A stretch of DNA of 64,000 nucleotides, from the NCBI RefSeq assembly GCF_022063185.1, contig NZ_CP091913.1, positions 2,481,501-2,545,500 of the forward strand. Direction: 5' to 3'. Origin of the DNA: Nostoc sp. UHCC 0870 (lineage in GTDB: Bacteria; Cyanobacteriota; Cyanobacteriia; Cyanobacteriales; Nostocaceae). Positions 45,051 to 52,072 of this stretch are shown here, in pieces. The notes below the pieces were generated by a model. The model was not told where the DNA came from. It was given only the letters and a program-made list of their open reading frames with translations, and made no database searches. The stretch's first letter is position 1; each line of letters starts with the position of its first letter. The position numbers were made by a program, and so were the translations under genes.

Positions 45051-46016
45051 TTAGAAGGAAATATTACGCGCCCTCCAGGCGTGCCAAACATAACCTAAGA
45101 ATGCTAATATCCCTAGAAAAAATTGAATGTTTGCCATACCTAAACGTTCTGTACCGTAAAGTTCAGGTGGAAAAACAGTAGTGTTATATCCTACAAAACT
45201 CGCAGAAATCCAAGCCATCAAAGCTAAACCAAGCAAGCTGTAAGACAGAATTTCTTCACCATTTTCTATTGGTAAAATTCGTCTGACCCAAGCAAAGGGT
45301 TGTACGATAATATGCCATACACCCCCCACAATTAGAATGCAACCAATCCAAATATGACCACCGATGACATCTTCTAGATTGTCAACACTGGCTATTCCTA
45401 AAGGAGTCCAGTGGTTATCTTTAAACCCAACTAAGTAGCTAAAAATTGTCATTGGGTTGAGAGTGGGCGTAGTTATCAGGCGCACATCTCCTAAATGAGT
45501 GTCATAAATGCCGCCGAAAAACATAGCTTTTAGCACTAGTAAGAATGCACCTAAACCCAGAATAATTAGGTGATGTCCTAAAATTAAACTCAATTGTTTA
45601 GGGTCATTCCATTCATAGTGAAATTTAGCTACTCTACCACCGGCATTATATAAAATTGCCGGAGCGCGAAAAACATGAAATAACCCACCTGCACCCAACA
45701 CAGCAGATGCAACTAAATGCAAAACACCAATAACAAAATAGGGATAAGTATCAACTACTTGACCACCTGCACCGACACCCCAACCTAAATTTGCTAAGTG
45801 CGGTAATAAAATCAAGCTCTGTTGATAAATTGGTACATCAGGAACAAAGCGAATAACTTCTGATATGGTAGTTGTCCCTACCCAAAACATAATCAAGCCT
45901 GCATGGGCAATATGTGCGCCTAATAATTGGCCTGACAAATCAGTTAAACGAGCATTACCAACCAACCAAGGTAATTCTGTATTGGCTGCAAAAGTTCTAT
46001 CAGTAGAAATTGCCAC
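45051..46016 (-). CDS. CP43-like chlorophyll-binding antenna protein (Pcb/IsiA family), divergent
   Basis: 321 residues, six membrane spans as in CP43 and IsiA, with ligand-type histidines in [56 protein letters not shown] and YVWHAWRA. It is shorter at the C-terminus than the other copies. It lacks the large lumenal loop of CP43, as Pcb/IsiA proteins do. It is the most divergent of the four antenna genes in this cluster. Likely a thylakoid protein binding chlorophyll a around a photosystem under stress. It lies 182 bases downstream of the gene at 46198, with an array between. Confidence 0.88.
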
Positions 46017-46094
46017 AGTTATACAATTTGAGATTTTAGATTTTCAAGTCAGCCCCAAGGAAAGGCTATGTAATACGAAGTCTCTCTAGAAAAG

Positions 46095-46205
46095 TGCTGA
46101 GTTAGCGAATCAGATAGTGGGCAATACCAACTCAGCACTCATTACTCAGCACTCATTACTCAACACTCAGCACTCAACACTCAGCACTCAGCACTCATTA
46201 CTCAG
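46095..46205. repeat. CACTCAG/CATTACT heptamer array
   Basis: Mixed CACTCAG, CACTCAT and TACTCAG units. The last copies overlap the stop codon and final codons of the antenna gene at 46198. Confidence 0.8.
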
Positions 46206-47232
46206 CACTGCTAATCGTATTTAATGACCTTTCGATTTGTCTAAAGTCAACACCAATGGCTCGTAGCGCGTGCCAGAGATGACCTTGGAGGAAGAAGAAA
46301 GCTAAGAAGAAGTGGGCATTAGCTAACCATGCTCTAGCACTGTAGCCGCCATTAGCTAACTTGACTGTATCGGCAAAATAGGGAGTTACACCTAATTTGA
46401 GTTCTAAGGGCGCACCATAGAATTCCACGGGATAAGCTAAGGTATTGACCGCACAGAAATAAGCTGCAACAAACCCAGCTAAGGCAATACCACCCAAAGA
46501 GTAGGAAAGAATCGCTTCACCTGAAAAGATTAAGAGCTTTTTCGCCCAAGGTAAAGGCTCTTTGACGATGTGCCAAATACCGCCACCAATCAGGATTAAA
46601 CCCACATAGATATGACCACCAATCAAATCCTCTAGATTGTTAACAGTGGCAAAGTGAGTTTGATAGCCATAGATAACAAAGGGGTTGAGGGTAGGGTTTG
46701 TGACTAGTCTGACATCGTGAATTGTCGAGTCGTATAGTCCTCCCCAAAACATAGCTTTTCCTACTAGCAATAAGGCAGCTATGCCTAGAAAAAGGAGGTG
46801 ATGCCCTAAAATTAAACCTAGCTGTTTGGAATCATCCCATTCAAAGTGAAATTTACGAGCAAAACCAGCACTGTTTTTTAAGTTGCGTGGCCCTTTAAAG
46901 GTATGAAAGAGCGCACCTGCTCCGAGGACGGCAGAAGAGATTAAATGTAAAGCTCCAATCACGAAGTAAGGGTAAGTATCTACTACTTGACCACCTGCAC
47001 CGACACCAAAACCTAAAGTAGCTAAATGGGGTAACAAGATTAGTCCTTGGTCGCCCATCGGGATATCAGGGTTGTAGCGAGAGATTTCAAACCATGTAAA
47101 TGCACCTGCCCAAAGAGTTGTCAGTGCGGCTTGTGCTACGTGTGCGCCGATAAATAAGCCAGAGAGGTCGGCGAAGCGGGCATTACCAACCCACCAATCA
47201 AATTTGACGTTGGGATTATCGTATGTCTGCAT
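46198..47232 (-). CDS. CP43-like chlorophyll-binding protein (IsiA paralogue)
   Basis: 344 residues, normal length for IsiA. Six spans carry conserved histidines ([81 protein letters not shown] and [16 protein letters not shown]). Its C-terminus SSAE and stop codon are written by the adjacent CACTCAG array. It is part of the cluster but 437 bases downstream of the IsiC-like gene, so it may have its own promoter. Family knowledge suggests iron-limitation induction; regulation of this copy is not shown by the sequence. Confidence 0.92.
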
Positions 47233-47669: not shown

Positions 47670-48422
47670 TTAATTTGTCGAATTTTGGTGAACTAATTGA
47701 GCTTTGGGTATTGATTTTAGATGATATGGTTGCCAAAAGCTCAACAGTTCCTCGCCGACTTGTTGAGGATAGAAGTAGTGAAAAAAATGATGCCCTTTGG
47801 GACACTCCCAGAGATTATCTTCAGCCTTAAACCCTTTCAACCAGTCTTTTAATACTTGTGAATTTACAATGGGATCATTCTTGCTACCACATACCATCAT
47901 CGGCATAGAAACCCCACCTTTAGGTAACTTAGTCAACTTAAAAAGAGAATGTAATAGGGGAGATTGTTCTAAATCTCTATCTAAGACTGCCATTAACTTT
48001 TTAGTAGTATTATGTGGTTGCTCACCAAAGAGATGACGAACACTACTAGCTAACACCTGCTCACGACTCATACTAAATGCTTGTCTTTGCAGATAATAGT
48101 GGACGTGCCAAGTATTTGCAGGTTGAGAGGCCACAGCCAATAGAGATAGCGATCGCACTTTTTCAGGATACCACCGCGCCAAAGTTAAAGCGATCGCACC
48201 ACCCGCACCATGACCAGCTAAATGCACCGGCTGAGAATACTGTGATAAATATTCCTCTAGCAAACCCACAGCCTCATCTATCGAGCCACCTTCATCCTTA
48301 CCATGACGATATTCCCACTGAGCTACATTCACATATTGCGATATATATTGGAGCAATGGTTTATCAAAACGCTGTAATACAGAACTAGAACTGATCCAAA
48401 GAACATCAATATCATCAGACAT
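47670..48422 (-). CDS. IsiC-like alpha/beta hydrolase homologue without nucleophile Ser
   Basis: 250 residues with an alpha/beta hydrolase fold. The nucleophile elbow reads LAGHGAGGAIALTLA, so Gly72 stands where the catalytic Ser should be. The acid site (CGSKNDPIV) and the late His (KGHHFFHYF) remain. The first part is SDDIDVLWISSSSVLQRFDK. Such a gene follows isiA/isiB in some cyanobacteria under the name isiC. With the Ser missing, a non-hydrolytic or altered role is likely. It lies 175 bases downstream of isiB on the same strand. A solitary repeat fragment is in the spacer. Confidence 0.82.
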   Translation of the reverse strand: MSDDIDVLWISSSSVLQRFDKPLLQYISQYVNVAQWEYRHGKDEGGSIDEAVGLLEEYLSQYSQPVHLAGHGAGGAIALTLARWYPEKVRSLSLLAVASQPANTWHVHYYLQRQAFSMSREQVLASSVRHLFGEQPHNTTKKLMAVLDRDLEQSPLLHSLFKLTKLPKGGVSMPMMVCGSKNDPIVNSQVLKDWLKGFKAEDNLWECPKGHHFFHYFYPQQVGEELLSFWQPYHLKSIPKAQLVHQNSTN

Positions 48423-48498
48423 AAAAACTCTAAAACCTCAGAAATTAAGCAGATTTAAAAACCACAAATACATACAGATTGCTTTCAAACTTAGCGTT

Positions 48499-48531
48499 CC
48501 TCCGCGTAAACCTCAGCGACACTTTGCGTTT
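48499..48531. repeat. Solitary end-repeat of the GxxExxY unit type
   Basis: CCTCCGCGTAAACCTCAGCG followed by a CTTTGCGTTT block closely resembles the inverted repeat at 31565-31608 (reverse complement: CCTCTGCGTAAACCTCCGCG, CCCCTTTGCGTT). It has no gene beside it. It lies between isiB and the IsiC-like gene. Confidence 0.55.
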
Positions 48532-48597
48532 AAAAACAAAATTATCTGTGTGTATCTGTGGTTAATCATCAGGTACAAAAAACGTTAATGGCTCAAA

Positions 48598-49107
48598 CTA
48601 CAAACCAAACTCTCTTTTCAACTGAGACACCCAAGCCTTTATCCGTTCATCGGTCAAATCAGATTGATTATCCTCATCAATAGCCAAGCCGACAAACTTG
48701 CCATTTCTTAAAGCCTTAGAATCGTTAAAATCATACCCCTCAGTAGGCCAATAGCCGACAGTTTTACCACCGCGTTGGGAAATCTTTTCTTCCAGAATGC
48801 CAATTGCATCTTGAAAATTATCTGCATAGCCCATCTGGTCGCCAGTACCAAAATAGGCAACCATCTTACCATTAAAATCTATGTCATCTAGTTCTGGAAA
48901 AAAGCCTTCCCAATCACTTTGGAGTTCACCAATATTCCAAGTAGGACAGCCAACAATCACATATTGATACTCCTCAAAATCAGCAGCTTCCGCTTGGGAC
49001 ATATCATGTAATGTCACACCATCACCAAACTCATCCCGAATAATTTCTGCTACAGATTCAGTTTTACCAGTTTGAGTACCGTAGAATAAACCAATTTTTT
49101 TCGACAT
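48598..49107 (-). CDS. isiB: Flavodoxin
   Basis: 169-residue long-chain flavodoxin; its FMN carries electrons from photosystem I to FNR in place of ferredoxin when iron is scarce. The phosphate-binding loop is FYGTQTGKTES (8-18), the FMN-stacking segments are CPTWNIGELQSDW and GTGDQMGYADNF, and the long-chain insertion and DEDNQSDLTDERI end are present. It starts nine bases after the isiA-psaL stop, so it is in one operon with isiA, as isiAB elsewhere. The ATG at 49107 is a clear start. It is functionally paired with the petF ferredoxin at 25185. Confidence 0.97.
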   Translation of the reverse strand: MSKKIGLFYGTQTGKTESVAEIIRDEFGDGVTLHDMSQAEAADFEEYQYVIVGCPTWNIGELQSDWEGFFPELDDIDFNGKMVAYFGTGDQMGYADNFQDAIGILEEKISQRGGKTVGYWPTEGYDFNDSKALRNGKFVGLAIDEDNQSDLTDERIKAWVSQLKREFGL

Positions 49108-49116
49108 TTTTACACC

Positions 49117-50556
49117 TTATATTGAGAAAAACAAACTGCTATTGGTTAATAGCAAATAAGCAAACAATGCTCCGCCACAACTTCCTACAGTCCAGCCAGC
49201 ATTGAACTCGCTCCAAGACTTAGCTGTTTTCAGATTCTCTGGTAGCTCCCCTTGCGGAGATTGGCCTTTTTTGAACCATGCACCGCCATAAAGCCACAGA
49301 CAAACCGATAAAATCAGCAACAGAGCAAAAGTTGCAAGTAGTCCGGCTGGGTTTGCCAACTCTGTATTCCGCAAGGGGCCTAATTTCACGAAGGGGCCGA
49401 GTAGGAAGTAACCATGAGCCATCCCAATTTCTAACCCTCGTGAAAAAGCGGACAAACCTGGACGGTAAATAGGAAGACCACCCAACAACTTCAGCGTCAA
49501 ATCAGAAGTATTGATTGGGGTTTGGAGATTCCCTAGTTCTGGTGCATCCAGATAATTGACTACGCCCTCCTGAAAATTCAATCCAGCCGCTAGGACACGC
49601 ACTCTTACAGCGTGCCATATATGTCCAGAGAGCAACACAATTGCCAAAGCAAAATGACTAGTTGCTAACCAAGTCCGAACTGAAATCACTCCTGAAGCAG
49701 TAACACTCAATCCCAAAGGGCCATAAAACTCTGTGGGATAAACGGTATCGTTGACTGTCACAAAATATGCTGCCAACAAACCCATGTATGCCAAAACAGC
49801 GAGACTGTAAGATAAGTAAGCCTCACCTGACCAAAACAGTACATTTTTCGCCCAAACAAAAGGTTGGGTGAAGATATGCCAAAATCCGCCGCCAATACAG
49901 AGGATACCTACCCAGATATGACCGCCTACAACATCTTCTAAGTTATTGACGGCGGCCATTCCCTGATTACCAAATGCACCAAAGAGATAGCCAAATATCC
50001 GCCCAGGATTCAGTGTTGGTTCTGTAATTACTCTGACAGATGCTACTGTCGGATCATAAAGACCACCCCAAAATAAGGCTTTTGCTACCAACAACCAAGC
50101 ACCTAAACCTAACAACAATAGGTGAATGCCAATGATAGTGGTCATTTTGTCTTCATCTTCCCAGTCGTAGCCAAAGAAACCAGGAAAGTTTTTATTGTCC
50201 GCCAATACTTCCGGCCCTAGAAGGGCATGATAAATGCCACCAGCACCAAGTACGGCTGAACTGATCAAATGTAATACACCAATCACAAAATAGGGATAGG
50301 GATCAATAATTTGTCCACCATCACCAACACCAAATCCTAGAGTCGCTAAATGAGGTAGTAAGATTAACCCTTGTTCGTATATGGGTCGGGAAGAGTCGTA
50401 TTTGGTGATTTCAAATAGGGTCATAGCCCCAGCCCAAAGCACAATTAACCCAGCATGGGCAATATGCGCTCCCAACAGCCGACCCGACAGATTAATAAAC
50501 CTGGCGTTACCTGCCCACCATCCATATTGTTGGGGGGTGATTGTTGCCGTAGTCAT
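49117..50556 (-). CDS. IsiA-PsaL fusion protein
   Basis: 479 residues. The first ~330 are an IsiA/CP43-like antenna with six spans and the usual chlorophyll-ligand histidines ([35 protein letters not shown]). The C-terminal ~145 (from about 335) are a PsaL-like domain: [52 protein letters not shown], then [21 protein letters not shown]. PsaL is the photosystem I subunit that forms the trimer core, so the fusion could anchor an IsiA domain directly in or beside photosystem I. The start is two bases after the isiA stop. Confidence 0.96.
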
Positions 50557-50558
50557 AG

Positions 50559-51587
50559 TTAAATTACCTCCCCACGAGTTGGGCGTAAAACTTTCCCGGC
50601 GCGGAAATCAAAACCCGCAGCTCGTAAAGCGTGCCAGAGATGCCCTTGCAAGAAGAAAAAGCCTAGCCAAAAGTGAGCATTTGCTAGCCAAACACGAGAG
50701 GATAATAAGTCTCCATCTTGGAAGTAGGGGAAGCGGTCAAACCCAATACTCAAAGCTGGCCCAAAAAACTCTACAGGGTAAGCCAGAGTATTAATAGAAA
50801 CAAAATAAGCCGCTATCAAACTCATGAAGCTTAATGCTCCCAAGCTGTAAGAAAGGTATGCTTCTCCTGACCAGACAAAGAGGCTTTTTACAAACGCTGA
50901 AGGCTCAGTTGTCATGTGCCAGATACCCCCTGCTATGCAAAGAATACTCACCCAAATATGGCCGCCTACTAAGTCTTCTAGATTATTGACTCCGGCAATC
51001 CAATACTTGTTACCACCAACTAAATAACTAAAAATAGCTGCAAAGTTCCAAGTAGGATGAGAAATAACTCGCACTTCCCCAATATTAGAATCGTATAAAC
51101 CACCGAAGAAGACAGCTTTGGCAACCAGTAAGCCAGCACCTAGACCTAATAAAACTAGGTGAATACCTAAGATAGTCGTCATTTTATTGGCATCTTGCCA
51201 ACGGTAGCTAAAGAAAGCAAATCGCTCTTCTAAGATGGCGGGGCCGCGTAGAGCATGAAATATCCCTCCCAAACCGAGGAAGGCAGAGCTAATCAAGTGC
51301 AGTACCCCAATGACAAAGTAGGGATAAGTATCTATCACTTGACCCCCACTACCCACACCCAAACCCAGGGTTGCTAAGTGGGGTAACAGAATTAAGCCTT
51401 GCTCATACATTGGTTGCGAGGTTTGAAAACGAGCGAGTTCAAACAAGGTGGTTGCACCTGCCCACAGTACAATTAAACCCGCATGAGCAACATGAGCGCC
51501 TAACAGTCGCCCTGAAAGATTCGTTAGCCGGGCGTTCCCTGACCACCAGGGAATCGACTCCGGGGTTTGCACAGCCATGCTCGTCAT
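50559..51587 (-). CDS. isiA: Iron-stress chlorophyll-binding protein IsiA
   Basis: 342 residues, six spans, with the full set of CP43-like histidine ligands and the [22 protein letters not shown]-terminal pattern. IsiA forms antenna rings around photosystem I and may dissipate energy under iron limitation. First gene of the run isiA, isiA-psaL (2-bp gap), isiB (9 bp), all on the minus strand. The ATG at 51587 has AGGAAA nearby; Met4 is an alternative. A candidate Fur-type site lies about 50 bases upstream (51636-51658). Confidence 0.95.
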
Positions 51588-51635
51588 GTTGTCATTTCCT
51601 GGAATTGTTGGAAATATTTGTGATCTTTCTCCAGC

Positions 51636-51691
51636 TTATTGAGATAGTTATTCAATAAGTGTTGGAAACATCCTACCAGATTTATTGAGAT
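51636..51691 (-). promoter_or_regulatory. Candidate Fur-type operator and isiA promoter region
   Basis: TTATTGA (51636-51642) and TCAATAA (51652-51658) form a perfect inverted repeat with a nine-base spacer. A further TTATTGAGATA begins at 51682, a direct repeat of the first. Such AT-rich symmetrical sites are where Fur binds upstream of isiA in other cyanobacteria. Assignment is by position and symmetry only. The rest of 51588-52072 holds no gene except the diverged repeat at 51943-52001. Confidence 0.45.
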
Positions 51692-52072
51692 AAATTTTCA
51701 CTTATTTATAATTAATTTTTGTAAAAGCCAAAGTTAGATCATGGCTAATGCCGATATTAAGGGTTTTTTAGCGATATTATAGAGAATAAATTTTGTATCT
51801 ATGGCTAGCTGACTATAAAATAGCTTATAATTATTGCTATTAAGATTAAGTTAAAGTAGCAGTTCTGATGGCATACTTGTACTACCAAGCGTAAATAAAG
51901 CTACCATTTCAAATCAACAGCATACTTACGATATATTTATTTTGACTTTTGCCGTTATCTGGGAAAGCTAACGCGAAACCTAAACACCTAACCCCCTTCC
52001 CGACATATCCGCCAACGGCGACTTTATAAATTATGACCGTAGTCAAATGTCTAGCCACTAACAAGCGTACCC

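Follow-up and report, generated by a model that had tools for sequence, protein, structure and literature searches.

The antenna-PsaL fusion gene of the isi cluster in Nostoc sp. UHCC 0870 and its relation to IsiA2 of Anabaena

Our study reports on a cluster of isiA-family genes in a 64,000-nucleotide stretch of Nostoc sp. UHCC 0870 (the window, from contig NZ_CP091913.1), in which all of the genes discussed lie on the minus strand. The first is an antenna gene of the IsiA3 type (50559-51587; 342 residues, ATG start), followed after 2 bases by isiA2, which encodes a fusion of an antenna with PsaL (49117-50556; 479 residues, ATG start) and has a GGGGAGG stretch ahead of its ATG. After a further 9 bases comes isiB, which encodes a long-chain flavodoxin (48598-49107; 169 residues, ATG start). 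The preliminary description of this DNA had tied three genes together by gaps of 2 and 9 bases, and these gaps, measured between minus-strand open reading frames, are borne out. Its span of 49117-51587 leaves out both isiB and the classical isiA, and the cluster is longer. Beyond isiB there are 175 bases to a gene of the alpha/beta hydrolase fold (47670-48422; 250 residues, PF12697 over its cut-off), 437 bases from there to isiA1, the classical isiA (46198-47232; 344 residues, PF00421), and 181 bases to an IsiA5-type antenna gene (45051-46016; 321 residues, PF00421), which is listed with a GTG start.

All four antenna genes carry PF00421, and PF02605 is found by Pfam in the C-terminal part of the fusion alone; the IsiA3-type gene shows PF00421 only. 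The top PDB match of this first gene is chain 2 of 9ZJT, titled 'Photosystem II CP43 protein PsbC homolog' (1.5e-213), that of the gene at 46198-47232 is chain 4 of 7Y3F (4.3e-217), with chain 4 of 9ZJT also matched, and that of the gene at 45051-46016 is chain 3 of 9ZJT (1.5e-191). Residues reported to be diagnostic of the Anabaena paralogues are F45, W47, K279, G281, V282 and T283 for IsiA1, M45 for IsiA2, T46 for IsiA3 and T49 for IsiA5 (PMC9938196). The window genes agree with them in all four cases: T46 is present in 50559-51587, M45 in the fusion, T49 in 45051-46016 and the complete set of six in 46198-47232. The published diagnostic residues thus identify these genes as IsiA3, IsiA2, IsiA5 and IsiA1, respectively. 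The first gene, which had been called isiA, is indeed a member of the isiA family but, on the evidence of T46 and the match to 9ZJT chain 2, is of the IsiA3 type and not the classical isiA. The product of isiB carries the flavodoxin domain PF00258, exceeds the cut-off of NCBIfam TIGR01752 and has the flavodoxin 1FLV as its top PDB match (3.8e-99); a second flavodoxin, 39% identical to it, is encoded elsewhere in the genome. Across the whole genome (7.17 Mb in 12 contigs) PF00421 is found in the four cluster genes and in two others, with frames of 510 and 488 residues, the latter being a psbC-like gene.

As first described, the fusion holds a complete antenna domain and a PsaL-like domain, the latter complete as well and in the same frame. 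PF00421 matches residues 11-281 (1.1e-77 for the whole protein, far over the cut-off), covering positions 3-271 of the 500 in the profile together with a short second stretch, and PF02605 matches residues 332-474 (1.2e-56; 191 bits, cut-off 25). The protein passes the cut-off of NCBIfam TIGR03041 (419 vs 335 bits) and falls below that of the psbC model TIGR01153 (416 vs 603 bits); these Pfam and NCBIfam matches describe a CP43-like antenna domain that is free of the large lumenal loop of CP43. It also lies under the cut-offs of all seven listed NCBIfam equivalog models for standalone PsaL. With its antenna domain, its PsaL domain and its distinguishing residues the protein is, by sequence, an IsiA2, or PsaL-fused IsiA (CBP type V). 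It is identical at 430 of 477 aligned positions (90%) to IsiA2 of Anabaena sp. PCC 7120 (7Y3F chain 1, present also in 9ZJT), from which it differs in length by one extra residue near position 286 and two more at the C terminus. Anabaena IsiA2, the All4002 of the Nodularia paper (PMC3610870), shares with it the two domains, their order and the diagnostic residues. Besides the fusion, the genome encodes one standalone PsaL, outside the window (E 4.4e-65), which is identical to the fused PsaL domain at 62 of 145 aligned positions.

Relatives were collected in one scan of genome contigs with the fusion as query, from which the best 80 of 394 were kept. A frame with both domains is present in 79 of these 80 loci, both being near full length in 77 of the 79; the sole miss, L052, has a 426-residue frame that ends without a PsaL part. 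This retention shows that the fusion is not a chance event. The surroundings recur as well: among the 79 fusion loci, many of which are cut by contig ends, the nearest upstream match is of the IsiA3 type in 67 and isiB is the next match downstream in 58, and homologues of the alpha/beta hydrolase are found in 45 of the 79. Of 386 genomes sampled from the phylum, PsaL is present in 189; at least 16 genomes besides this one show a PsaL match in a frame of 489-550 residues, which is the length of a fusion as judged by frame length alone, with no domain check. A quick tree was built from 110 PsaL domains, comprising 81 fused rows (the window, the 79 loci that remain when L052, with no PsaL part, is dropped, and L018) and 29 standalone rows (L001 and loci of the 386-genome sample, drawn from best-scoring matches only; other fusions could be missing). 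The standalone rows form one side of a branch with support of 91. This topology fits a single fusion event, but long branches meet in the tree and 39 of its 104 inner branches are left open.

Several relatives depart from the common pattern. In L041 (Nostoc sp. KVJ20) the fusion frame is split into parts of 90 and 418 residues, as a result of either gene disruption or faulty assembly. The Oscillatoriales-type fusions L088, L089, L094, L097, L105 and L108 have long branches and PsaL domains only 42-47% identical to that of the window; they may fit the PsaL site differently. Three fusion genes (L071, L080 and L081) come from records titled Gracilibacteria, Saccharibacteria and Chloroflexaceae, and are most likely contigs of cyanobacteria that were binned wrongly in metagenome assemblies.

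The conserved Glu and His of the PsaL motif (Glu 376 and His 381 in the window protein), which we take to be chlorophyll ligands of PsaL, are invariant in all 81 fused and all 29 standalone rows. Of the residues published as contacts to photosystem I (PSI), W313, V331 and G341 (PMC9938196) are conserved in the window protein as W314, V332 and G342; the published contact L347 is isoleucine both in 7Y3F chain 1 and in the window protein, and the published numbering is only partly confirmed. Four residues of IsiA2 reported as unlike PsaL, W426, F427, N451 and W454 (PMC9938196), are matched in the fusion by W427, F428, N452 and W455. As a family signature this set was rejected, since it varies among the 81 fused rows, with W427 in 3, F428 in 69, and N452 and W455 in 19 each.

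Iron regulation of the cluster was examined with a FurA matrix made from 11 sites of PMC4005646 and the consensus, which was given double weight; as the site of Anabaena all4003 is among the 11, the matrix is partly circular. A weak group of FurA-box-like sites at 51642-51718, just upstream of the first gene, as a predicted FurA site has been published upstream of Anabaena all4003 (PMC4005646), holds three of the five best matrix matches in the window, and the score of the region 51588-51887 was equalled by 11 of 200 shuffled sequences. Shuffles were as good in 4 of 200 cases for 46017-46197 and in 23 of 200 upstream of isiA1, while the gap at 48423-48597 yielded nothing (151 of 200). A search for the exact FurA consensus with up to 3 mismatches returned 0 sites in the 64-kb window. 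The Rfam IsrR model matched the plus strand, antisense to all four isiA-family genes, at 45434-45611, 46662-46839, 49986-50163 and 51023-51200 (128.7-142.4 bits). Opposite the psbC-like gene in this genome (L113) the same model scores higher still, at 170.3 bits; the IsrR matches thus follow from homology of the coding sequences, and we rejected them as evidence for an antisense RNA. That IsrR matches the coding homology of isiA and psbC is a caution for automatic annotation.

Fusions of this kind are known from other cyanobacteria. The isi cluster of Nodularia with its PsbC-PsaL hybrid gene was reported in 2013, with nine predicted membrane helices for the product; that paper links the hybrid to All4002 of Anabaena, counts nine more cyanobacteria with hybrids of this type and suggests that they provide a hard-wired antenna on PSI monomers (PMC3610870). 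By description, the 477-residue hybrid psbC-lk2 (Nsp37500) of Nodularia spumigena CCY9414 resembles the window fusion, and its cluster, like that of the window, has four isiA/psbC-like genes, a flavodoxin gene and an alpha/beta hydrolase gene (PMC3610870). The hydrolase gene lies between flavodoxin and isiA in Nodularia, and such genes are reported near flavodoxin in most N2-fixing cyanobacteria (PMC3610870). In Trichodesmium, IsiA4 is described as an IsiA-family protein with a C-terminal PsaL domain, as in IsiA2, that is up under iron limitation, and it belongs to an isiA2-isiA3-isiA4-cpcG2 cluster with a strong iron response; this cluster, again likened by description, is unlike that of the window and its paralogues are numbered differently (PMC12090762).

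The Anabaena orthologue has been seen in place. The 2023 cryo-EM structure 7Y3F, at 2.62 Å, is of a PSI-IsiA complex in which PSI is a monomer, PsaL is absent and the C-terminal domain of IsiA2 occupies the PsaL position (PMC9938196). A visible loop links the antenna and PsaL-like domains, the pigment sites are retained, the purified complex includes PsaI and PsaM, and energy passes from IsiA to PSI in 55 ps (PMC9938196). Its authors propose that PsaL, giving tetramers, and IsiA2, giving monomers, compete, and that the antenna domain of IsiA2 blocks the formation of PSI dimers and tetramers; the block on oligomerisation is their model, drawn from one structure and earlier gel work that they cite (PMC9938196). 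In the same account isiA2 is less strongly induced than the other three isiA genes (PMC9938196).

The sequence of the window fusion, its domains and orthology, the gene order and the separate standalone psaL are established for this genome, and we consider it very probable that the fusion is an ordinary orthologue of Anabaena IsiA2 that acts as described for that organism. By analogy, the fusion would be expressed under iron shortage, as part of an iron-regulated cluster that comprises isiB and four genes of the isiA family. Its C-terminal domain would then take the place of PsaL on a PSI monomer, and the fused antenna domain would lie against PsaA and, on that side, contact the neighbouring IsiA subunit. 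The antenna would pass excitation to the PSI core and keep PSI from forming dimers and tetramers, while ordinary PsaL, encoded elsewhere, would compete for the same site and give rise to PSI oligomers.

The preliminary description had instead placed the antenna at the trimer interface of PSI under iron stress. The attachment to PSI survives, as the PsaL site, by homology to the Anabaena structure; the trimer interface does not, the PSI there being a monomer without PsaL. A fusion that kept the contacts of PsaL and so brought an antenna into the oligomer would accord with the completeness of its PsaL domain, and in other PSI it is PsaL that lies at the interface of the oligomer, but we regard this as highly improbable, contradicted as it is by the monomeric complex of the 90% identical orthologue. 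In addition, the role proposed for the antenna domain is to prevent oligomers, and Anabaena PSI is described as forming tetramers together with monomers and dimers, not trimers (PMC9938196). Broken or divergent versions do exist, such as the split frame of L041 and the PsaL domains of L088 and L108 (42 and 44% identical to that of the window), yet we give almost no credence to an accidental or decaying fusion that has no function in its own right, given the 79 of 80 related loci that keep both domains and the presence of the Anabaena protein in a purified complex (PMC9938196).

In the window, isiB stands directly behind the fusion, whereas in Anabaena isiA and isiB are transcribed separately according to a review (PMC8635728). 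We suggest, tentatively and as less likely than not, that the position of isiB behind isiA3 and isiA2 may make an antenna for the PSI monomer and an iron-free PSI acceptor into one co-expressed unit; if so, assembly of the PsaL-replaced monomer and the supply of flavodoxin would rise together.

Published work already covers the fusion protein, along with its family and mechanism. The idea that had been offered as open at this locus was proposed by 2013 (PMC3610870) and shown in 2023 (PMC9938196), where the Anabaena orthologue formed part of a purified PSI complex, against the earlier proviso that the product might never appear in PSI fractions. Our analysis introduces no new principle; the solved case, that of a fused antenna exchanged for a PSI subunit, now takes in one further genome of the Nostoc type. 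Our survey shows that the fusion and its cluster occur widely among filamentous cyanobacteria and in some unicellular ones, and in the solved case the fused antenna is proposed to set the oligomeric state of PSI under iron shortage.
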